In this document: positions 5,440 through 22,767 of the stretch, in pieces
Position numbering within the stretch: the first letter of the stretch is position 1
Layout: the number at the start of each line of letters is the position of its first letter
The notes under the pieces: generated by a model
Told to the model about the DNA's origin: nothing
Database searches by the model: none
Seen by the model: only the letters and a program-made list of their open reading frames with translations
Translations under genes and position numbers: made by a program
NCBI GenBank assembly: GCA_030726915.1
Contig: JANRCR010000047.1
Coordinates: 1-36,835, forward strand
DNA: 36,835 nt
From: Candidatus Nanopelagicales bacterium
GTDB taxonomy: Bacteria > Actinomycetota > Actinomycetes > S36-B12
Direction of reading: 5' to 3'

Positions 5440-5575
5440 ACCCACAAGTGAATACGCGCCCGATGTCCAGGGGAAGCCGGTGAGAATCCGGCGCTGACCC
5501 GCAACCGTGAGCACCGCAGGGAGTCGTGAAGACCTGCGGGCAAGTCGGAGCACCTGGCGGGCGCGAGCGCCTCGT
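5440..5575 (+). promoter_or_regulatory. Cobalamin riboswitch (boundaries approximate)
   Basis: Conserved core GGGGAAGCCGGTGAGAATCCGGCGCTGACCCGCAACCGTGA (from about 5470) and AAGTCGGAGCACCTGGC; long-range stem CGCGCCCG (5455-5462) with CGGGCGCG (5558-5565). Confidence 0.93.
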
Positions 5576-5691: not shown

Positions 5692-6810
5692 ATGCACGCG
5701 TTCATCCGCATGGCCGGCGCGCGAACTCAGCGCCGCAATGTCCCGCGGTTATCTGTCGCCCTCGTCGCCTTTGTCACAGCCCTCGGTGTGACCCTCGGAC
5801 TCATGACCACCTCGGTGCACGCGGCCGAGCCCGATACGCGGGGCCTCTTCGGACAGCAAGATCCGACGTACAACGGCGTATACCGTCAATCGGCCTCCGT
5901 GTTGGGACTCGCTGCCGTCGGCATCACCGCCCCCCGGCCCACCGTCACCTGGCTGCTGCGCCAGCAGTGCGCTGACGGCTCCTTCACCGGTTACCGCCTC
6001 GATCCCACGCAGGCCTGCCCCGAACCCGATCTGGTCAGTTTCACAGGACCGGACACCAACTCCACGGCGATGGCCGTCATGGCTTTGCGAGCCCTCACCG
6101 CGCGGTACACCGGATCTGCACGGGATGCGCAGCGCAAGACCGCCGTCAAGGGGGCAGCTGCGCGTGCTGCTGCGTGGCTGACTCAACAACAACTCAGCGA
6201 CGGCGGATGGGAATGGATCCGCGGGCTTGGAGCCGATGCAACGTCGACGTCCATGGCCCTGGCCGCCATCGGGCGGAAGGCAACGCCCACGAGCCGCCGC
6301 GGATCAACGTGGTTGAGACGTGCCATGAGCATCGAGTCCAACTGTGGCGTGGCCTTCCAGCCGGGCAGTCTGGTCGATCCCCTGTCGACAAGTTGGACTC
6401 TCATCGGTGCCGAAGGCGCCCTGCCCTACGTGCGCTACACAGGCCCACGGACCCTCACCCCGTGTACTGGTGCGCAGCCGGGTGTCTTGGCTGCGGGCAC
6501 CTGGCTCGCATCCGCGCTCATCGACGGGGAGGGACAGATCCCCTCGCCGTACTCACCCGATGAGACGGACTGGAACGCCACCGCTCTCGCCACGCTGGGC
6601 CTGTCCCAGTCACACGGGTCCACCGGTGCTCTACGCCTTGGCCTGGCCGCGCTGAAGAGCAACGTCTCGGCGTACGCCGAATCCGCTGATGGAGACATTC
6701 CTGCCGCCCTCGGCACTCTGCTCATGGTCGCGCACGCAGCCAACGCCAACCCTCGAGACTTCGGTGGAGTCAATCTGCCCGCTCGACTCCTCGCCACCGT
6801 GCAGAAGTAA
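5692..6810 (+). CDS. Secreted prenyltransferase/squalene-oxidase-repeat (alpha/alpha-barrel) protein, putative corrinoid-binding surface protein
   Basis: Signal peptide (RLSVALVAFVTALGVTLGLMTTSVHAAEPD); repeats VTWLLRQQCADGSFTGY and AAWLTQQQLSDGGWEWIRGLGADATSTSMALAAI typical of terpenoid-cyclase toroid; first gene after the B12 riboswitch. Confidence 0.8.
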   Translation: MHAFIRMAGARTQRRNVPRLSVALVAFVTALGVTLGLMTTSVHAAEPDTRGLFGQQDPTYNGVYRQSASVLGLAAVGITAPRPTVTWLLRQQCADGSFTGYRLDPTQACPEPDLVSFTGPDTNSTAMAVMALRALTARYTGSARDAQRKTAVKGAAARAAAWLTQQQLSDGGWEWIRGLGADATSTSMALAAIGRKATPTSRRGSTWLRRAMSIESNCGVAFQPGSLVDPLSTSWTLIGAEGALPYVRYTGPRTLTPCTGAQPGVLAAGTWLASALIDGEGQIPSPYSPDETDWNATALATLGLSQSHGSTGALRLGLAALKSNVSAYAESADGDIPAALGTLLMVAHAANANPRDFGGVNLPARLLATVQK

Positions 6811-6841: not shown

Positions 6842-7788
<947 letters not shown>

Positions 7789-7792
<4 letters not shown>

Positions 7793-8958
7793 CCGCGGTC
7801 GGGGTGGAGACAGCGGGAGTCGACCTCACCGCTGTCCGTGGGCCGGGCGGAGTGCGCACCCGTGGGCGACGGCGCCTCCCGCGCGCACTGCATCCCGGGG
7901 CCTGGTGGCTCTGGGCTGCTGGCCTGGCGATCGCGGCATCACGCACGACGAATCCGCTGCTCCTGGTGTTGATCGTCGCCGTCGCGGGCTACGTCGTCTC
8001 CGCTCGAAGGTCTCAGGCACCCTGGGCCCGATCCTTCGGCTTCTTCCTCAAACTCGGCCTCGTGGTCATCGCCATCCGCGTCCTCTTTCAAGCCATCGTC
8101 GCCGCGCCCATCGGCACGACGATTCTGGTGACGCTGCCGTCGTTCACACTGCCCGAGATCATGGCCGGAGTCCGGCTCGGCGGCCCCATCACCGCGGAGT
8201 CCCTCATCGCCGCCCTCTACGACGGTATGCGACTCGCCACCATCCTCATCTGCATCGGGGCGGCCAACTCTCTGGCGTCACCGGCACGCCTGCTCAAGGC
8301 TGTTCCGTCGGCCCTGTACGAATTCGGCCTGTCCATCGTCATCGCCGTGACCTTCGCACCGCAATTGGTCACCGACCTGGACCGCATCCGCTCCGCTCGC
8401 CGCCTCCGTGGACGCGCCATCGGTGGCCTCCGCGGCACAGCGGGGTCGGCACTGCCCGTCCTCGAGGGTGCCCTGGAGCGCTCCATCACCCTCGCGGCCG
8501 CCATGGACTCACGTGGATACGGTCGCCAGGCGCATCGCTCGCGGATGGTGCGGCGGACCACGGGCGCGGCACTCCTCGGTGCCCTCGTCATGGTGGTCAT
8601 CGGCACCTACGCACTGCTGGACGCTTCCGCGCCCGCCGCTCTCGGCCTCCCTCTCCTGGCGACCGGTTTCATCCTCGGCGGCATCGGCTTCGCCCTCGCG
8701 GGGCGTCGTTCGATCCGCACCCGCTATCGGCCAGACCCGTGGACATGGCCTGAGTGGGGCGTGACACCCTGCGCGCTCGCCACGGCCGGCATCGTCGTCG
8801 CCGCCAGCGTGCAGGGTGTCTCCGGCCTCATCGCTCCGGTGGATCCGATCGCCTGGCCCACCGTTCCCGCCGTCGCCGTGCTCGCCATCCTCATCAGTGC
8901 GCTGCCCGCTGTCATCACACCACCCGTGCCCGACTCCGCCAGAGGATCCAGGACATGA
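7789..8958 (+). CDS. ECF transporter T component (CbiQ/EcfT-like)
   Basis: Multi-TM; VIAVTFAPQLVTDLDRIRSARRLRGR, LEGALERSITLAAAMDSRGYGR (ARG-type EcfT coupling motifs); GTG start overlaps previous stop (GTGA). Confidence 0.88.
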
Positions 8959-10613
8959 GCCCGATGGTGGATTTTGCCTCGGTCACCGTGACCTACTCCG
9001 GCGCCGTGCAACCCACCCTGCTCGACGTCAATCTGCAGATCGATGAGGGTGAATTGGTGCTCGTCGTGGGCGAGACGGGCAGCGGCAAGACCACATTGCT
9101 GCGTGCCATCAACGGACTCGTGCCTCACTTCACGGGGGGCACGCTCGCGGGTCGCGTCACCGTCGCGGGCCGTGATACGTCGACTCATCGTCCGCGCGAC
9201 CTGGCCGATGTGGTCGGCGTCGTCCCGCAGGATCCCCTGTCCTCGTTCGTCACGGACACGGTCGAGGAAGAACTCGCCTACGGCATGGAGTGCCTGGGCA
9301 TCCTCCCCGATGTCATGCGCCGACGCGTCGAGGAGACCCTCGACCTGCTGGGACTTGCGGACGTGCGGAATCGCCCGCTCCTCAGCCTCTCCGGAGGTCA
9401 GCGTCAACGCGTCGCTATCGGCGCAGTCCTGACATCACACCCCCGCGTGCTTGTGCTCGATGAGCCCACGAGCGCACTGGATCCCGGGGCGGCGGAGGAG
9501 GTCCTCTCGACACTGCAGCGCCTCGTCCATGACCTCGGCATCACCGTGATCCTGGCGGAGCATCGACTGGAGCGGGTCCTGGAGTACGCCGACCGGGTCG
9601 TGCACGTCCCCGGTGCCGGACGTCCCGTCATCGTCGGTTCGCCGCAGGACATCATGGCAACGTCACCGGTGGCTCCACCCGTCGTACGCCTGGGTCGTCT
9701 CGCTGGCTGGTCACCCCTGCCCATGTCTGTGCGCGATGCTCGGCGTCGGGCCCCCGCGTTGCGCGAACGTCTGCATCCGCCGGCTGGCGCCCGGGGGAAT
9801 GTGCGATCACCGTCGCCACCGTCCCTCGACAGCGGACGCGACTGTGTCATCAGCATCGACCGCACGCGTGCGTCCTACGGACATGTGCCGGCCCTGCGCG
9901 GCATCACTCTCGACATCGCTCAGGGTGAGGTCATCGCGCTGATGGGGCGCAACGGAGCGGGCAAATCAACCCTGCTGTCCACCCTCGTGGGACTACGTCG
10001 ACCCGATGCAGGCACGGTTCGCATCGACGGCGTGGACCCGGCGACCATGACGGGACCACGCCTCATCGGCCGGATCGGGCTTGTCCCGCAGGACAGTTCC
10101 GACCTGCTGACCCGCGACAGCGTGGCGGAGGAGTGCACCGACGCCGATCGCGATGCGGGCATGCCGCACGGAAGCACTCAGGATCTCCTGGCCCGCATTG
10201 CGCCGGAGATCAGCGCCCAGACACATCCACGAGACCTGTCCGAGGGACAGCGCCTCGCACTTGCACTGTCGGTTGTGCTCGTCGCCTCTCCCCTCGTCCT
10301 CCTCCTTGATGAGCCCACGCGGGGGTTGGACTATCCCACCAAGGAGCGTCTCTCAGCACTCCTGCGTGACCTGGCCGCCTCCGGCCACGCCATCGTCATC
10401 GCAACACATGACGTCGAGCTCGCGGCCGAGACGGCGACGCGCGTCGTCGTCCTTGCCGATGGCGAGATTGTGGCTGACGGGCCCACCGCACATGTCGTCA
10501 TCGGATCACCGCTCTTTGCCCCCCAGGTCGCCAAGATTCTCGCGACGGCAGACGGCGGTGACGTGCCTCTCACGGTCGCGGCCGTGCGAGACCTGCTGGC
10601 GGTGAGTGGGTGA
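8955..10613 (+). CDS. ECF transporter ATPase with two fused ABC domains (EcfA-EcfA' fusion)
   Basis: NBD1: GETGSGKTT / LSGGQRQRVAIGAVL / VLVLDEPTSALD; NBD2: GRNGAGKST / LSEGQRLALALSV / LLLDEPTRGLD; ATGA overlap with the T component. Confidence 0.92.
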   Translation: MSPMVDFASVTVTYSGAVQPTLLDVNLQIDEGELVLVVGETGSGKTTLLRAINGLVPHFTGGTLAGRVTVAGRDTSTHRPRDLADVVGVVPQDPLSSFVTDTVEEELAYGMECLGILPDVMRRRVEETLDLLGLADVRNRPLLSLSGGQRQRVAIGAVLTSHPRVLVLDEPTSALDPGAAEEVLSTLQRLVHDLGITVILAEHRLERVLEYADRVVHVPGAGRPVIVGSPQDIMATSPVAPPVVRLGRLAGWSPLPMSVRDARRRAPALRERLHPPAGARGNVRSPSPPSLDSGRDCVISIDRTRASYGHVPALRGITLDIAQGEVIALMGRNGAGKSTLLSTLVGLRRPDAGTVRIDGVDPATMTGPRLIGRIGLVPQDSSDLLTRDSVAEECTDADRDAGMPHGSTQDLLARIAPEISAQTHPRDLSEGQRLALALSVVLVASPLVLLLDEPTRGLDYPTKERLSALLRDLAASGHAIVIATHDVELAAETATRVVVLADGEIVADGPTAHVVIGSPLFAPQVAKILATADGGDVPLTVAAVRDLLAVSG

Positions 10614-11473
10614 ACGCCGTACATATGGGAGTGCGCTCCTGGATTGCCGTCAGCCTGGCCACCGTCGTGGGAGTCCTTGCCTTCGGGTGGCCCTTCCTTG
10701 CCGAGCCCGGGTCGACCGCGATAGCGCATGCCTCGGATGCACCCTGGATCTTCGCGGCGATCGTCCCCCTCGTGCTCCTTGTCGTCCTGGCCCAGGTGGC
10801 CGACGGTGGCATGGATGCCAAGGCCATCGCCATCCTCGGAGTGCTCGCCGCAGTGATCTGCATCCTTCGCCCGCTCGGAGCTGGGACAGCCGGGTTGGAG
10901 CCCATCTGGTTCATCATTATCCTCGGTGGCCGGGCCCTGGGGCCGGGATTCGGCTTTGCACTCGGCTCGCTCTCTCTCGTCGCCTCCGCACTCATCACCG
11001 GCGGCGTCGGCCCGTGGCTGCCCTTCCAGATGATTGCCGCGGCATGGGTGGGACTCGGTGCGGGACTCCTGCCCCCGATGCGCGGACGGCGCGAGATCGC
11101 CATGCTCGCCACCTACGGACTGATCGCCTCAATGGGGTACGGCCTCGTGATGAACCTGTGGTTCTGGCCGTTCCTCGGCGGGCTGGAAGCCACCGCCTAT
11201 GCCCCTGCCATCATGTTTGACCCCGGCGCCCCGGTCAGTGACAACCTGGGCCGCTGGTTGGCCTTCTCCCTGGTGACCTCTCTCGGCTGGGACATCCCAC
11301 GCGGCATCCTCACGGCCGCCCTCATCATCGTCATCGGCCGGCCCGTCCTGGTCGCTCTGCGGCGGGCATCGCGGAAGGCCAACTTCGCTCCCCACGTGGT
11401 TTTCGCGCCGGAGACTCACCTCCAGACCGGCGCCCCCGTCCATGCCGTCGGCCCGGGGACGAGCGCGCCCTGA
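10610..11473 (+). CDS. ECF transporter S component, probably corrinoid-specific (CbrT-like by context)
   Basis: Six-TM-like small hydrophobic protein; IIILGGRALGPGFGFALGSLSLVASALITGGVGPWLPFQMIAAAWVGLGAGLLP is a typical S-component stretch; embedded in the B12-riboswitch operon. Confidence 0.8.
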   Translation: MNAVHMGVRSWIAVSLATVVGVLAFGWPFLAEPGSTAIAHASDAPWIFAAIVPLVLLVVLAQVADGGMDAKAIAILGVLAAVICILRPLGAGTAGLEPIWFIIILGGRALGPGFGFALGSLSLVASALITGGVGPWLPFQMIAAAWVGLGAGLLPPMRGRREIAMLATYGLIASMGYGLVMNLWFWPFLGGLEATAYAPAIMFDPGAPVSDNLGRWLAFSLVTSLGWDIPRGILTAALIIVIGRPVLVALRRASRKANFAPHVVFAPETHLQTGAPVHAVGPGTSAP

Positions 11474-12843
11474 TGGAGGTGATCGTTCTTGGCACAGGAG
11501 CCGCCGACGGGTGGCCCAGTCCCTTCTGCGAATGCCTCTCCTGCGCCGACATGCGCTCACGCGGCCGTGTTCGGGTGCCCACGGCCGCCCTGGTGGACGG
11601 ACTCATCCTCCTGGACGCGGGCCCGGCGGTAGCCTCATCCGCTGCCCGGGCACGAGTGTCGCTGCGAGATGTGCGCCACGTCCTCGTCACGCATGCGCAT
11701 CCTGATCATCTCGACCCGGCGCTGCTGCTGTGGCTCGATTGGAATCCCACTCCCGCCGTGCTGCACCTGTGGGGTCCGCCGTCCGTCCTGAGCCGCTGCC
11801 GAGATTGGATCGGACCGCGCACTCCCGTCCAACTCCATGAGATTGCTGCCGGTGACACCTGGGGACTGCCGACTCCGCGCGGGGATTACACCGTGCGCGC
11901 TGTGGCCGCAGCACACGGTGGACACGCACCGGACTCCGTGGCCGATGAGGCCGTGCTCTACGACCTCACCGCTCCCGATGGCAGCCGCCTGCTCTACGCC
12001 ACGGACACGGGCCCGATCGGTGATCTCACTGCATGCGCGGGCGCGGCGTACGACGTCATCCTGCTGGAGGAAACCTTCGGAGATCACCTCGACCATGGCA
12101 CGGGCCACCTCGACCTTGCCACGCTTCCGGTCATGCTCCACGACCTCACAGCCGTGGGCGCGCGCGTAGACACCACCCAGGTTGTCGCCGTGCACCTCGG
12201 ACATCACAATCCCCCGGAGGCACTCCTGCGCGAGCGGCTTGCGGCCCACGGGGTGCGGCTCGTCGACGACGGCACGACGATCGGGCGCCCCACACGCGGA
12301 CTCATCGTCGGTGGGGCACGCTCGGGCAAATCCACAGAAGCCGAACGCCGAGCCGGAGCATTCGCGCACGTGACGTACGTCGCCACAGCATCTGCGCGCC
12401 CGGATGATGCCGAGTGGCAGGAGCGCGTGCGGATGCACCGCGAGCGCCGCCCCGCACACTGGCGCACGGTCGAGGGGGGTCATCACCTCGCGGACACACT
12501 GCGCGACGCTTCACCGGGATCGGCCATCCTCGTTGACTGCTTGACGCTATGGCTGACCGACGTCCTTGACAGGGCCTCCCCCGACTGGAGTGACGATGAT
12601 GCCCTCTCGGCGGGTGCGCACGCTGCCACCGCGGACCTCCTTGCGGCACTCGCACAGTGCCCTGCCACCGTGATCCTCGTGAGCAACGAGGTGGGCATGG
12701 GCCTGGTGCCCGCGACGCGTGCGGGTCGGATTTTTGTCGACCTGCTCGGACGCCTGCACCAGCAGGTCGGGGATGTCTGCGACACCATCACCCTCATGGT
12801 CGCGGGACAACCGTGGGTGATGCGAGGTGGACATGTCGACTGA
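11473..12843 (+). CDS. cobU: Fusion: N-terminal PhnP-like metallo-beta-lactamase-fold hydrolase + C-terminal CobU (adenosylcobinamide kinase/guanylyltransferase)
   Basis: N-term: VIVLGTGAADGWPSPFCECLSC..., THAHPDHLD; C-term: GLIVGGARSGKSTEAERRA..., ILVDCLTLWLTD, VSNEVGMGLVPATRAGRIFVDLLGRLHQQV. Confidence 0.9.
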   Translation: MEVIVLGTGAADGWPSPFCECLSCADMRSRGRVRVPTAALVDGLILLDAGPAVASSAARARVSLRDVRHVLVTHAHPDHLDPALLLWLDWNPTPAVLHLWGPPSVLSRCRDWIGPRTPVQLHEIAAGDTWGLPTPRGDYTVRAVAAAHGGHAPDSVADEAVLYDLTAPDGSRLLYATDTGPIGDLTACAGAAYDVILLEETFGDHLDHGTGHLDLATLPVMLHDLTAVGARVDTTQVVAVHLGHHNPPEALLRERLAAHGVRLVDDGTTIGRPTRGLIVGGARSGKSTEAERRAGAFAHVTYVATASARPDDAEWQERVRMHRERRPAHWRTVEGGHHLADTLRDASPGSAILVDCLTLWLTDVLDRASPDWSDDDALSAGAHAATADLLAALAQCPATVILVSNEVGMGLVPATRAGRIFVDLLGRLHQQVGDVCDTITLMVAGQPWVMRGGHVD

Positions 12844-13948
12844 CGCGGATGAGTCCCCAGCCCAATCACTCCTCGCGGACGTGGTGGCACGCATCGACTG
12901 GCCCGACCGCGAGGCGGCTCGTCAGGCCACGGAGCGGTGGCAGTCACTGACCAAGCCGGAGGGTGCGCTCGGTCGTTTGGAAGACCTGGGCACGTGGTGG
13001 GCTTCGGTCCGAGGTACCTGCCCACCAGCGCCTCCCGCGCGACCGGTTTTGGTGATCTTCGCCTCCGACCATGGCGTCGCACGCACAGCACGGACGTCGG
13101 CGTACCCCCCTGAGGTCACCGCGCAAATGGTGCGCATCCTCCTCTCCGAGCGCGCCGCCGCGAATGCGCTCGCACGTCAGGTGGGCGTCCGGGTCCGCGT
13201 CGTCGATGTCGGTGTCGATGCACCGGAGGACTACGCGAACGACCTGGGACCTGATGTCGCCGCGATGCGCATTCGACGGGGAAGCGGATCCATCGATCGA
13301 GAGAATGCACTCACGTCCGAGGAGGCCGATGCGGCCTTCGCACTCGGCGTGGCTATCGCGGACACCGAGATTGATGCAGGTGCTGACCTGCTTATTGCTG
13401 GAGACATGGGCATCGGCAACACCACATCCGCCTCGGCCATCGTGGGCCTCCTCGCACCCGCAGAGGTGACATCCGTGGTGGGCCGGGGCACGGGCATTGA
13501 TGACCACACCTGGATGCGCAAGACGGGCGCGGTGCGCGATGCGATGCGACGCGGCAAGGCGCACAAGGCAGCGCCCCTGGATCTCATCGCCACGATCGGT
13601 GGTCCCGATATCGCCGCCATGCTGGGATTCCTCCTCGAGGCTGCCGCACGGCGTACCCCCGTCATCCTCGATGGGACGGTGCCGACAGCCGCCGCCCTCA
13701 TCGCCCACCGAGCGGCCTACAAGTCTCGCGACTGGTTGCTGGCCGGACATCGCTCCACCGAGCCGGCTCATTCAGCAGCCCTGGGGAGGCTTGATCTTGA
13801 GCCCCTGCTGGACCTGCGCATGCGCCTGGGAGAAGGCACGGGAGCCCTCCTTGCCGTCCCACTTATCGCCGCGGCCGCCGCAGCCCTGGGGGAGATGCTC
13901 ACCTTCACCGAGGCTGGTGTGAGCACGGCCGAGGAGCCCGCGGAGTGA
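12833..13948 (+). CDS. cobT: Nicotinate-nucleotide--dimethylbenzimidazole phosphoribosyltransferase CobT
   Basis: LTKPEGALGRLEDLGTWWA, FASDHGVA, LIAGDMGIGNTTSASAIVGLL, VVGRGTGIDD, ILDGTVPTAAALIA. Confidence 0.95.
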   Translation: MSTDADESPAQSLLADVVARIDWPDREAARQATERWQSLTKPEGALGRLEDLGTWWASVRGTCPPAPPARPVLVIFASDHGVARTARTSAYPPEVTAQMVRILLSERAAANALARQVGVRVRVVDVGVDAPEDYANDLGPDVAAMRIRRGSGSIDRENALTSEEADAAFALGVAIADTEIDAGADLLIAGDMGIGNTTSASAIVGLLAPAEVTSVVGRGTGIDDHTWMRKTGAVRDAMRRGKAHKAAPLDLIATIGGPDIAAMLGFLLEAAARRTPVILDGTVPTAAALIAHRAAYKSRDWLLAGHRSTEPAHSAALGRLDLEPLLDLRMRLGEGTGALLAVPLIAAAAAALGEMLTFTEAGVSTAEEPAE

Positions 13949-14736
13949 GGGCACTGCGCCTGACCTTCGGGCTCCTCACCGTCATCCCCGTTGGCGCTAT
14001 CGGCGACGTCGATCGCCACCTGGCCCGCAAAGCCATCCTCCTGGCACCGCTCGTCGGCCTGGTGCTGGGAGCACTCGCTGCGCTGGTGGTCGCGGTCGTG
14101 CACGCACTCGTACCGTCCACACTCGGCGCGCTGCTCGCTGCCGTCCTGGCTGTGGCGCTGCTCGCCTATCTCACTCGCGCACTGCACCTGGACGGCCTCG
14201 CCGACACCGCCGATGCACTCGGCAGCGGCAAGCCGGCGGATGCCGCATTGGAGATCGCCCGACGCGGCGATGTCGGGCCATTTGGTGTCGTGACACTCGT
14301 GCTCGTACTTCTCATGCAGGTGACCGCTCTCGCCATCGCCACCGAAGCCGGCTGGGGTGGAATGACCGTCGTCATCGCCGTCGTCACCGGTCGAGCCGCG
14401 GTCGTCGTCGCCTGCACCCGCGGCATCCCCGCGGCACGACCCGAGGGCCTCGGTGCGCTTGTTGCCGGCACCATCCCGCGAGTCGCATCCGCGGCCTGGG
14501 TCATCGTCATCGTGATCGGAGCCTTCGGGGTCGGCACGTGGCTCACTCCGGATGCTGCGTGGACGTGGCCGCTCGCAGTCGCGGTCGGCCTCGCGGTCGC
14601 CGCACTGCTGGTGCGCCGCGCCGCGCGCAGGCTCGGAGGTGTCACGGGTGACGTGATGGGGGCGACGGTGGAGACCGCGTCCACCACGGCCCTTCTCGTC
14701 GCAGCTCTCACCTACGCGAGCGCGCTCACCTCGTAG
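13945..14736 (+). CDS. cobS: Adenosylcobinamide-GDP ribazoletransferase CobS
   Basis: LTFGLLTVIPVG..., LTRALHLDGLADTADALGSGKPADAALEIARRGDVGPFGVVTLVLVLLMQ; GTGA overlap with cobT. Confidence 0.95.
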   Translation: MRALRLTFGLLTVIPVGAIGDVDRHLARKAILLAPLVGLVLGALAALVVAVVHALVPSTLGALLAAVLAVALLAYLTRALHLDGLADTADALGSGKPADAALEIARRGDVGPFGVVTLVLVLLMQVTALAIATEAGWGGMTVVIAVVTGRAAVVVACTRGIPAARPEGLGALVAGTIPRVASAAWVIVIVIGAFGVGTWLTPDAAWTWPLAVAVGLAVAALLVRRAARRLGGVTGDVMGATVETASTTALLVAALTYASALTS

Positions 14737-19228: not shown

Positions 19229-20332
19229 ATGACCGCAGCCTCAGCCCTCGCACGGGCCTTCGTCGACAACCACGTCCGCCCGAATCTCGCCAGCTGGGAT
19301 GCCGCCGCGACCTACCCGCGCGAGGTTGTCGCGGCCTCCGGGCTCACCGGCCTGTTCGTCGCCCCCGACAAGGGAGGACTGGGTCTGAGCTACGGCGAGG
19401 CAGTCGACGTCTTCGAGGAACTCGGCCGAGGTGACGGCTCGCTCGCCTTCTCCATGTCGATGCACAACGCCGTCGCTGCCGCGGTCAACGGTGCGGCGAC
19501 CGGTGTCCTGCTTGAGCGCTGGGGCGGGGCCCTCGCATCAGGTCAAGCGCTCGGTTGCTTCAGCATCACCGAGCCGCAGTCGGGCACGGATGCCACCGCG
19601 CTTCGCACCCGGGCAACCGAGCGCGACGGCTCGTGGACCATCACCGGGCGCAAGGCATGGGTGAGTCTCGGCGGGGTCGCCGACGTCTACGCCGTGGTTG
19701 CCAAGACCTCCGACGAGCCAGGCCACTCGGATGTGGCCATGTTCATCGTCGAGGGAGCGGACCCGGGGGTTACCTTCTCCGCCCCGTACCGCAAGGCCGC
19801 CTCGGACTTCCTGCCCATCACGGACATGGAGTTGACCGAGGCCAACGCCTTCCTGCTGGTTCCCCCCGGCTCGGGCATGTCCGCCGCCCTGGCGGCCATC
19901 GACGTGGCCCGCTTCGACATCGCCGCCATCAGCGTGGGACTCCTAGCCGAGGCCCTCGATGTGGCCACGCGGTACGCCTGCCAGCGCGTGACCTTCGGCA
20001 AGCCAATCATCGAGCACCAGGGCCTTGCTTGGATGCTCGCCGACGTCGCAACGGACGTGGAGGCGGGCCGGCACCTCACCCGAGCTGCCGCCGAGGCCAT
20101 CGGAATGCCGGAGGGCCGGGTCGCCATCGCCCACGCCAAGCGTTTCGCCCCGGACGCTGCTGTGCGGGGCACCGCCGCCTGCAGCGAAGTGCTCGGCGCC
20201 TATGGATGGCTGCACGACCACCCCATCGCACGCATGGCGGCCGTCGCCACGATGCTTACCGTGGTGGACGGCACCGCCGAGGTCCAGCGCATCGTCATCG
20301 CCCGCGACCTGCAGCGCCGAGCCAGCAAGTAG
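19229..20332 (+). CDS. Acyl-CoA dehydrogenase family protein
   Basis: FSITEPQSGTDATALRTRA, WTITGRKAWVSLGGVADVYAVVAKT, YACQRVTFGKPIIEHQGLAWMLADVATDVEA, VDGTAEVQRIVIARDL. Confidence 0.92.
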   Translation: MTAASALARAFVDNHVRPNLASWDAAATYPREVVAASGLTGLFVAPDKGGLGLSYGEAVDVFEELGRGDGSLAFSMSMHNAVAAAVNGAATGVLLERWGGALASGQALGCFSITEPQSGTDATALRTRATERDGSWTITGRKAWVSLGGVADVYAVVAKTSDEPGHSDVAMFIVEGADPGVTFSAPYRKAASDFLPITDMELTEANAFLLVPPGSGMSAALAAIDVARFDIAAISVGLLAEALDVATRYACQRVTFGKPIIEHQGLAWMLADVATDVEAGRHLTRAAAEAIGMPEGRVAIAHAKRFAPDAAVRGTAACSEVLGAYGWLHDHPIARMAAVATMLTVVDGTAEVQRIVIARDLQRRASK

Positions 20333-20369
20333 CCCCATAGGCCGCGCTGACGCCCAACGAGGAGCCACC

Positions 20370-21560
20370 ATGACCGGGACGATCCCCTCCTTGGACGCCC
20401 CTGGAATCGCCGACAACGTCGAAGCGTTGGCCAACTACGCCGACTCGCACTCCGTGGTGCGCATCAGCGCCAAGCGCTTCAGCGAATCGCCGTGGAGTCG
20501 TCATTACGCCGACGACCAGACTGTTTTCGGTGTCTACGGTGGCCGGCTCTACCCGCTCTCCCTCGGCGCGGACCCCGTCGCCGACTACTGGCACCTGCGC
20601 ACCAAGGTCGCCTTGTTCGACGTACCCGAGAAGCCGATCGAGATCAGCGGACCGGACACCGAGGCTTTCCTGAACTCCCTGCTCACACGCGACGTCACCA
20701 AGGTGCCCGCTGGCAAAGCCCGCTACGCCCTCGCGTGCGATCACCGAGGCCGCATCCTCATGGACGGGGTCGTGATCAAGTGGGCCAAGGACCGGTTCTG
20801 GTACGTCCTCGCGGACGGTGACTTCCTCGGCTGGATGAGGGCACAGGCGGCCCACTTCGACGTCAAGGTGCGCGATCCTGATGTGTGGGTACTTCAGATC
20901 CAGGGACCCCTCAGCCTCGATGTGCTGAACGCTGCATGCGACGACCCGTCACCCGAGCCACTCGCCTACTTCGCCGCGCGAGGCGCGCTCATCGGCGGGC
21001 AGGAGGTCCTCATCACCCGCACCGGCTGGACGGGTGAACTCGGCTTCGAGATCTACGCCGGACCCGATATCGATCACGACACCCTCTGGTCCCACCTCAT
21101 GCAGCAGGGGGCAGCGCATGACCTGCGCTGCCTGAGCCTGGAATGCATGGGCATCCGGCGGATCGAGGCCGGCATCTTGGACAACGGCAGCGATATGGAT
21201 CCCGGCCTGACCCCCTACGACGTCGGGCTCGGGGCCTTCGTCGATCTCGCCAAGGAGTCCTTCCTCGGGCGGGAGGCTCTGGCGGCAGGCGACACCGGCA
21301 ACCGACTCACTGGCATCGTCGGGCCCCGGGCACCGCGGCCCGGCGAGAGCCTGCTCGTCGACGCTCGCGAGGTGGCGCGGGTACGAGCTGGTGCGTGGTC
21401 ACCGACCCTCGGGAGCGGTATCGGCTACGCGCTCTTCCTCGGACCCCCCAGCGATGAGAACCCGCTGGTCTCAGCGATTGACGGCAGCGTCTTCACACCC
21501 CACACGCTGCCCTTCCTCGACCCAGAGAAGCGACTGGCGCGAGGGCTCCCGCTCGATTAG
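20370..21560 (+). CDS. GcvT-superfamily aminomethyltransferase/demethylase-like protein (DmdA-like branch)
   Basis: LFDVPEKPIEISGPDTEAFLNSLLTRDVTKVPAGKARYALACDHRGRILMDGVVIKWAKDRFWYVLADGD; VWVLQIQGPLSLDVL; TRTGWTGELGFEIY; RIEAGILDNGSDMDPGLTPYDVGLGAFVDL. Confidence 0.8.
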   Translation: MTGTIPSLDAPGIADNVEALANYADSHSVVRISAKRFSESPWSRHYADDQTVFGVYGGRLYPLSLGADPVADYWHLRTKVALFDVPEKPIEISGPDTEAFLNSLLTRDVTKVPAGKARYALACDHRGRILMDGVVIKWAKDRFWYVLADGDFLGWMRAQAAHFDVKVRDPDVWVLQIQGPLSLDVLNAACDDPSPEPLAYFAARGALIGGQEVLITRTGWTGELGFEIYAGPDIDHDTLWSHLMQQGAAHDLRCLSLECMGIRRIEAGILDNGSDMDPGLTPYDVGLGAFVDLAKESFLGREALAAGDTGNRLTGIVGPRAPRPGESLLVDAREVARVRAGAWSPTLGSGIGYALFLGPPSDENPLVSAIDGSVFTPHTLPFLDPEKRLARGLPLD

Positions 21561-21681
21561 CCCCGCGCGTTCGCCTGCGGATCGCCCACCCAAAGGACGA
21601 CCAGGCTCGCTGCCTACGTCACAGAACTCGACCCGACCGGCGCCATCCCCGACATCGCCGGCTAACCGCTACGGTCGGCGC

Positions 21682-22767
21682 ATGAGCCTGCGCCAGACCC
21701 CGCTGCACTCCCGCCATGTGGCCCTCGGCGCCAAGATGGCCGACTTCGGGGGCTGGGACATGCCCATCGAGTACGTCGGCACCGTCACCGAGCACACTGC
21801 CGTCCGCGAGAGCGCCGGCGTCTTCGATGTCTCGCACATGGGCTACACCGAGGTGACGGGATCGGGTGCCATCGCGTGGCTCAACTCCGTGCTCGCCAAT
21901 GACCTCGAGCGTGTCGGTGCTGGGCAGGCGCAGTACTCACTGCTGTGCGACGAATCGGGCGGCGTGATCGACGACCTCATCGTCTACCGCATCAATGACG
22001 ACAACGCCTTCATCATCCCCAATGCGAGCAACTCCGATGCCGTGGTGGCAACGCTCTCCGCAGCGGCAGCTGCTGCCGGGACCGGTATCACGGTCGCGGA
22101 CAAGCGCGAGGATTACGGAATCCTCGCTGTGCAGGGTCCCCGCAGCGACGCAATTCTCGAGGCCCTCGGCCTGCCCTGCGGGCACGACTACATGAGCTTC
22201 GCGCGCACAAGCTGGCAGGGCAGCCCGGTTGTCGTATGCCGCACCGGTTACACCGGCGAGCGAGGCTACGAAGTCCTCGTCCCCGCCTCGGTCCTCGCAG
22301 ACCTGTGGGATGCCGTGGTCACGGCGGGCGCGACCCCGGCGGGGCTGGGTGCGCGCGACACGCTGCGCACCGAGATGGGCTACCCCCTGCACGGCCACGA
22401 GCTCTCGCTCGACATCACGCCGGTGCAGGCGGGCCTGGCGTGGGCCGTGGGCTGGGACAAGCCAGCCTTCGCGGGGCGCGATGCACTGGCCGCAGAGCGC
22501 GCCTCCGGACCGCGTCGGCGACTGCGCGGCCTCGTCGCGGTGGAGCGGGCCATCCCCCGACCCGGCATGCCCGTGCTGTCGGCGGACGGCGCGACCATCG
22601 GCGAGATGACCAGTGGCACGTTCTCGCCCACGCTGAAGCAGGGCATCGGTCTTGCGCTGCTCGACCCGGCCATCGCCGAGGGCGACGAGGTGGTCGTCGA
22701 CGTGCGCGGGCGTCAGGCGCGCTTCACGGTGACGAAGCCACCGTTCGTGACGCCGCACGTCCGCTGA
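21682..22767 (+). CDS. gcvT: Glycine cleavage system aminomethyltransferase GcvT
   Basis: TPLHSRHVALGAKMADFGGWDMPIEY, FDVSHMG, RTGYTGERGYEVLV, ARDTLRTEMGYPLHGHELS, GEMTSGTFSPTLKQGIGLALL. Confidence 0.93.
   Translation: MSLRQTPLHSRHVALGAKMADFGGWDMPIEYVGTVTEHTAVRESAGVFDVSHMGYTEVTGSGAIAWLNSVLANDLERVGAGQAQYSLLCDESGGVIDDLIVYRINDDNAFIIPNASNSDAVVATLSAAAAAAGTGITVADKREDYGILAVQGPRSDAILEALGLPCGHDYMSFARTSWQGSPVVVCRTGYTGERGYEVLVPASVLADLWDAVVTAGATPAGLGARDTLRTEMGYPLHGHELSLDITPVQAGLAWAVGWDKPAFAGRDALAAERASGPRRRLRGLVAVERAIPRPGMPVLSADGATIGEMTSGTFSPTLKQGIGLALLDPAIAEGDEVVVDVRGRQARFTVTKPPFVTPHVR

Follow-up and report, generated by a model that had tools for sequence, protein, structure and literature searches.

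A candidate two-piece, transcobalamin-like corrinoid trap encoded beside an ECF importer in an actinobacterium

The riboswitch-headed operon

The window, a 36,835-nucleotide stretch of DNA from a Candidatus Nanopelagicales bacterium, carries an operon with the order riboswitch–barrel (P1)–SLBB (P2)–EcfT–EcfA–EcfS–CobU–CobT–CobS. The genes run head to tail, and stop and start codons overlap at most junctions. The cobalamin riboswitch aptamer at 5444–5575 (+) scored 40.7 bits against RF00174 (E 4.4e-07; gathering threshold 31.5 bits) and was the only RF00174 match in the 2.2 Mb genome. The first gene behind it, as an earlier note on this DNA had read, is P1 (5692–6810, +), whose ATG at 5692 is preceded by a plausible ribosome site (ggag). 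The 372-residue product, a typical Sec signal followed by a compact domain, is assigned here as an exported α6/α6-barrel (toroid) protein, SCO2321-like, and may be the alpha half of a transcobalamin-like binder that is divided between two genes. P2 (6842–7792, +), an exported protein of the SCO2322 family, is the candidate beta half; a rotation scan and a DUF4430 comparison (see below) place a putative circularly permuted SLBB/DUF4430-like beta-grasp domain at approximately 6923–7351 (+).

The components of an ECF transporter follow on the same strand: the CbiQ-like transmembrane subunit EcfT (∼7789–8958, +; PF02361, E 3.4e-07), the start of which is inferred and overlaps the P2 stop codon; EcfA (8955–10613, +), with two fused ECF-type ATPase domains (two stretches matching PF00005 and ECF ATPase models); and the substrate-specific component EcfS (10610–11473, +; PF12822, E 2.4e-09). 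EcfS is kept beside P1/P2 in relatives and is a probable corrinoid S-component, although neither its single sequence nor its profile found a recognisable relative among the solved structures in the PDB. Three genes of corrinoid salvage complete the operon. The first (11473–12843, +) encodes a metallo-β-lactamase-fold domain fused to CobU/CobP (cobinamide kinase/guanylyltransferase; PF12706, PF02283, PRK05800 187 bits), the second (12827–13948, +) CobT (nicotinate-nucleotide-dimethylbenzimidazole phosphoribosyltransferase; TIGR03160, 388 bits), and the third (13945–14736, +) CobS (adenosylcobinamide-GDP ribazoletransferase; PF02654, E 6.3e-45). The metallo-β-lactamase-fold domain is PhnP/RNase Z-like, and many relatives have the fusion to CobU/CobP over its whole length; the domain might catalyse a phosphatase or hydrolase reaction that corrinoid salvage otherwise lacks.

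Neither of the two corrin-ring markers tested, CbiC/CobH and CobJ/CbiH, was found in the genome (95% complete). Four proteins with B12-binding domains scored above cut-off; these include two mutases, methylmalonyl-CoA mutase and an IcmF-like one, as well as a corrinoid methyltransferase partner. As judged from its gene content, the host is probably unable to make vitamin B12. Since the two ring markers are absent, B12-binding-domain proteins are present and CobU, CobT and CobS lie beside an importer, the bacterium looks like one that imports corrinoids and completes them.

The predicted P1 barrel and the probable P2 beta-grasp domain

Mature P1 was predicted by AlphaFold2 (78-sequence alignment) to be an all-helical, 12-helix barrel (pLDDT 93.6, pTM 0.93). 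The signal peptide, the α/α barrel and the stretches LLRQQCADGSF and QQQLSDGGWEW described in the earlier note were all recovered, and the model thus contains the barrel on which that reading depended. Six inner helices, assigned by alternation and not from coordinates, begin near residues 62, 122, 183, 230, 294 and 337, and each starts with a short stretch of polar or small residues (e.g. DTNSTA, DATSTS, DWNATA). Cysteines C93, C109, C218 and C258 are 99–100% conserved, which fits an extracytoplasmic protein, and the polar residues R65, Q91, Q92, D121, N123, D182 and T186 are nearly invariant. P1 is not a chance reading frame, because a homologue is present in 50 of 59 related genomes and because it resembles the NCBIfam family SCO2321 (NF053823; 148.9 bits, E 1.9e-43). 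Its score lies under the 300-bit equivalog cut-off of that model, which by that rule makes it a relative and not an equivalog.

The Foldseek matches listed for P1 were α/α toroids, among them squalene-hopene cyclase, drimenyl diphosphate synthase, the farnesyltransferase β-subunit and complement-type domains. The comparison with transcobalamin proposed in the note gave nothing among the best 50 of 722 matches. A profile search of the PDB with P1 likewise found cyclases (1e-24) and no transcobalamin, and the Pfam matches, to cyclase, prenyltransferase and TED models, were all sub-threshold. P1 has no beta domain; its chain stops with the barrel. The proposal that P1 by itself is an analogue of transcobalamin or intrinsic factor therefore fails for lack of both the beta domain and a transcobalamin match in these searches, and survives for the P1–P2 pair: on the sequence evidence, the half missing from the P1-alone reading is P2, the product of the next gene.

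P2 scored 146.8 bits against the SCO2322 family model (NF040672), above the curated cut-off of 85. Its signal peptide is followed by a domain of ∼140 residues, in which four cysteines are conserved; a stretch rich in Pro, Thr and Ser then leads to a hydrophobic membrane helix at the C-terminus and a positively charged RMRRAAS tail. Genome G193 gave the first sign of a permutation: there, the SCO2322 profile matches with its second half ahead of its first. In 17 distant actinobacterial homologues the two halves of the profile occur in reverse order relative to the window. Unrotated, the window-type profile aligned to the distant type with a score of 96.6 over 53 columns; a rotation by ∼72–80 columns raised the score to 143.5 over 114 columns.

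The distant type is also the one that connects P2 to DUF4430. A profile of the 17 sequences was colinear with DUF4430 (score 37.8, E 9.3e-06), and one of 48 sequences matched it over 99 columns (score 42.8, E 6.2e-07, 92%), whereas the best of 60 block-shuffled controls reached 20.8. The DUF4430 alignment used (29 sequences) was built in this analysis. Window-type P2 alone matched DUF4430 over about 45 columns (63%), so that the whole-domain profile relationship is shown for the non-permuted P2 relatives. The Pfam DUF4430 model gave no match in the window's genome, in most relatives or in P2-type domains; a haptocorrin fragment did not score above control against P2-type profiles, and P2-type relatives matched PDB entries at chance level only. 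Because there was neither a DUF4430 model match to P2 nor a direct haptocorrin match, the link from P2 to transcobalamin runs via DUF4430 only.

The AlphaFold2 model of P2 (pLDDT 93.3) has strands at residues 4–14, 17–20, 34–43, 70–78 and 95–102, a helix at 107–114 and a short hairpin at 117–127. Its strand order is S3-S4-S5-S1-S2-helix-hairpin, compared with S1-S2-helix-hairpin-S3-S4-S5 in a standard SLBB domain, and the distant relatives retain the standard order. A transcobalamin-type beta-grasp would present this layout if its chain were cut at the junction of the hairpin insert with strand 3. Judged by the profile comparisons, the P2 domain is a circular permutant of a relative of the transcobalamin-type beta-grasp (SLBB). 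Foldseek found nothing significant for P2, a result expected for a permuted chain, since the program follows chain order, but one that gives the beta-grasp no structural confirmation. A circular permutation of P1 was also considered, the end of its profile preceding the start in distant relatives. It is not claimed, because repeat-built barrels give ambiguous orders and because two loci (L088 and L090) pair the P1 order of the window with the standard P2 order.

P1 and P2 in related genomes

P2 followed P1 in 76 of 76 loci with a continuing contig (from 80 loci in named genomes), and 67 loci had the order P1–P2–EcfT. A B12 riboswitch (RF00174, RF01482 or RF01689) lay just upstream of the P1 orthologue in each of the 13 loci that were inspected from the same taxonomic order but from families other than f7; none scored above threshold upstream of P1 in three f7 loci and four Streptomyces loci. 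Streptomyces has the same gene pair in the same order, and there, as in some other relatives, P1 ends in a membrane helix, which the P1 of the window lacks.

Most of the relatives surveyed are metagenome bins, and the genome counts that follow ignore shared ancestry. Among 297 genomes of the phylum, a P1-type barrel was found in 90, a P2-type domain in 53 and a DUF4430 domain in 50. The 90 genomes with a barrel had a P2-type partner in 48 cases, DUF4430 in 31 and neither in 12; both partner types occurred together in 1 of the 297 genomes only. Co-occurrence of the P1 and P2 types gave a Fisher p of about 1e-24, a statistic that also ignores shared ancestry. The order DUF4430–EcfT–EcfA–EcfS–barrel was present in all eight DUF4430 loci inspected, so that DUF4430 occupies the slot adjoining EcfT that is filled by P2 in the window, and the ECF subunits of these loci are homologous to those of the window (EcfS, E 1e-28 to 1e-36). 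Fusions were found in three genomes of one family. Locus L102 (8397–11279) encodes a single exported protein with the layout signal–barrel–SLBB–SLBB followed by further domains, and two more genomes of the family (G221 and G317) have barrel and SLBB-like matches in one frame. The further C-terminal domains of the L102 protein resemble cell-wall-binding repeats.

Several loci depart from the common arrangement or vary within it. The riboswitches that precede P1 in closely related genomes (L064–L076) score best with RF00174, RF01482 or RF01689. Three of these loci (L071, L072 and L074) have riboswitch, P1 and P2 with no adjacent ECF genes, so their importer must be elsewhere or shared; CobU, CobT and CobS are still nearby in L072 and L074. 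Within 17 kb, locus L096 (G263:C1:669000-686000) holds two pairs of barrel and SLBB-like genes, together with four matches to cobalamin riboswitches. A genome of the Streptomyces family (L085, G230:C1:3648000-3666000) combines the permuted set with a second P2/ECF set in standard order and a DUF4430 protein.

Proposed corrinoid capture and alternative functions

We consider it likely that P1 and P2 together form a transcobalamin-like corrinoid catcher, each chain providing one half, and that this catcher feeds an ECF importer, probably the vitamin importer encoded next to them. A more detailed version, in which the pair is an actinobacterial two-piece transcobalamin whose soluble barrel and tethered, permuted SLBB domain clamp one corrinoid and deliver it to the ECF S-component, we favour by a narrower margin over its being wrong. 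According to the catcher model, the riboswitch would permit expression of the operon when cobamide is scarce. Both proteins would be exported. P1 would be a loose α/α barrel, and P2 would stay anchored through its C-terminal membrane helix and carry its SLBB-like domain on a flexible stalk. Barrel and beta domain would then close over one corrinoid, a sandwich geometry taken from transcobalamin, the two domains of which hold one B12 between them (PMC1796856). The corrinoid would be passed to EcfS and imported through EcfT/EcfA, after which CobU, CobT and CobS could rebuild imported cobinamide or incomplete corrinoids to a cobamide, which methylmalonyl-CoA mutase and the other corrinoid proteins would use. 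It is plausible that P1 is retained at the surface by P2, since the P1 of the window, unlike that of Streptomyces and some other relatives, lacks a membrane anchor. If the two-piece reading is true, the split may permit release through dissociation of the halves.

In a first alternative, P1 and P2 might be the exported capture module of the ECF importer, but for cobinamide or another corrinoid fragment, or in some lineages for a different nutrient. That the operon includes CobU, CobT and CobS suggests salvage of cobinamide, the known B12 transporter ECF-CbrT also carries cobinamide (PMC5997447), and the ligand could differ in Streptomyces, where the orthologues have no riboswitch above threshold. 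However, B12 riboswitches precede the gene across most of the order, and the genome has corrinoid-dependent enzymes without the two corrin-ring markers; both points make it more likely that whole cobamides are among the ligands. We therefore regard this alternative as unlikely, if worth keeping in mind. It is less probable still that P1 is an exported barrel with no part in capture (an envelope scaffold, a TED-like or a peptidoglycan-associated protein) that merely travels with the importer. The many functions of α/α toroids, the appearance of complement C4 and α2-macroglobulin among the sequence or fold matches of P1, and the cell-wall-binding-like repeats of the fused relative would suit such a role, but P1 is strictly paired with a partner of SLBB-like or DUF4430 type and with an ECF operon, and this, together with B12 riboswitch control, argues against it.

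A terpene cyclase or prenyltransferase-like enzyme is the least probable of these, even though squalene-hopene cyclase and its relatives are the best matches of P1 by both sequence profile and fold. The DxDD motif of class II terpene cyclases, which the earlier note had not seen in P1 by eye, occurs in none of the 78 aligned P1-type sequences, and on this ground a terpene cyclase was rejected. The export signal, an operon free of isoprenoid genes, the B12 riboswitch and the ECF and Cob neighbours agree with the note's view that a role in intracellular terpenoid chemistry is unlikely.

The proposed two-piece trap resembles animal transcobalamin, intrinsic factor and haptocorrin in combining an α6/α6 barrel with an SLBB beta-grasp, in being exported and in its tie to B12 supply. 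In the animal carriers, however, the SLBB domain is C-terminal on the same chain, whereas here it is permuted and encoded by the next gene. P2 is membrane-anchored, the partner is an ECF importer instead of an endocytic receptor, and the searches described above linked neither P1 nor P2 directly to the animal carriers by sequence. The principle of scavenging with a toroid and an SLBB domain is not new: Burroughs et al. (2007) predicted that bacterial α/α toroid and SLBB proteins encoded with CbiO/CbiQ are B12 scavengers (PMC1796856). Those DUF4430 systems, like the window, have both domain types encoded next to genes of the ECF type, and P2 differs from them in being missed by the DUF4430 model, in its conserved cysteines and in its permuted strand order. 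With the NCBIfam families SCO2321 and SCO2322 the window shares the gene pair and its order in Streptomyces, and P2 passes the SCO2322 cut-off, whereas P1 falls below the equivalog cut-off and lacks the C-terminal membrane helix of its Streptomyces counterpart. ECF-CbrT of Lactobacillus delbrueckii is likewise an ECF-type importer tied to B12 and cobinamide (PMC5997447); the S-component of the window differs in having no detectable similarity to solved structures and in the addition of putative exported binding partners. Circular permutation has been reported for the E1 ubiquitin-fold domain in a review of the beta-grasp fold (PMC1949818), and the parts of that review consulted make no mention of it for SLBB.

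The family names SCO2321 and SCO2322 give no function, and in the literature searched we found no study that assigns one to either, and no description of two such genes placed behind a B12 riboswitch, of a circularly permuted SLBB-like domain, of the assignment of that domain to the SCO2321/SCO2322 pair or of a strict association with a single ECF family. The trap reading offers a testable function for these two widespread actinobacterial families, the Streptomyces pair included. It lends support to the idea that bacteria have a counterpart of the animal B12 carriers, one in which the two domains exist as separate, recombinable parts, and this bears on the origin of transcobalamin. In ECF importers, substrate binding is ascribed to the S-component. 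The trap would add an extracellular capture step, and the literature searched yielded no description of such pre-capture for ECF importers; it also suggests a way in which B12-dependent plankton could compete for a scarce vitamin.

Elsewhere in the window, at 20025–22767, two adjacent frames on the same strand resemble the glycine-cleavage T-protein (aminomethyltransferase-like), as read from their translations.
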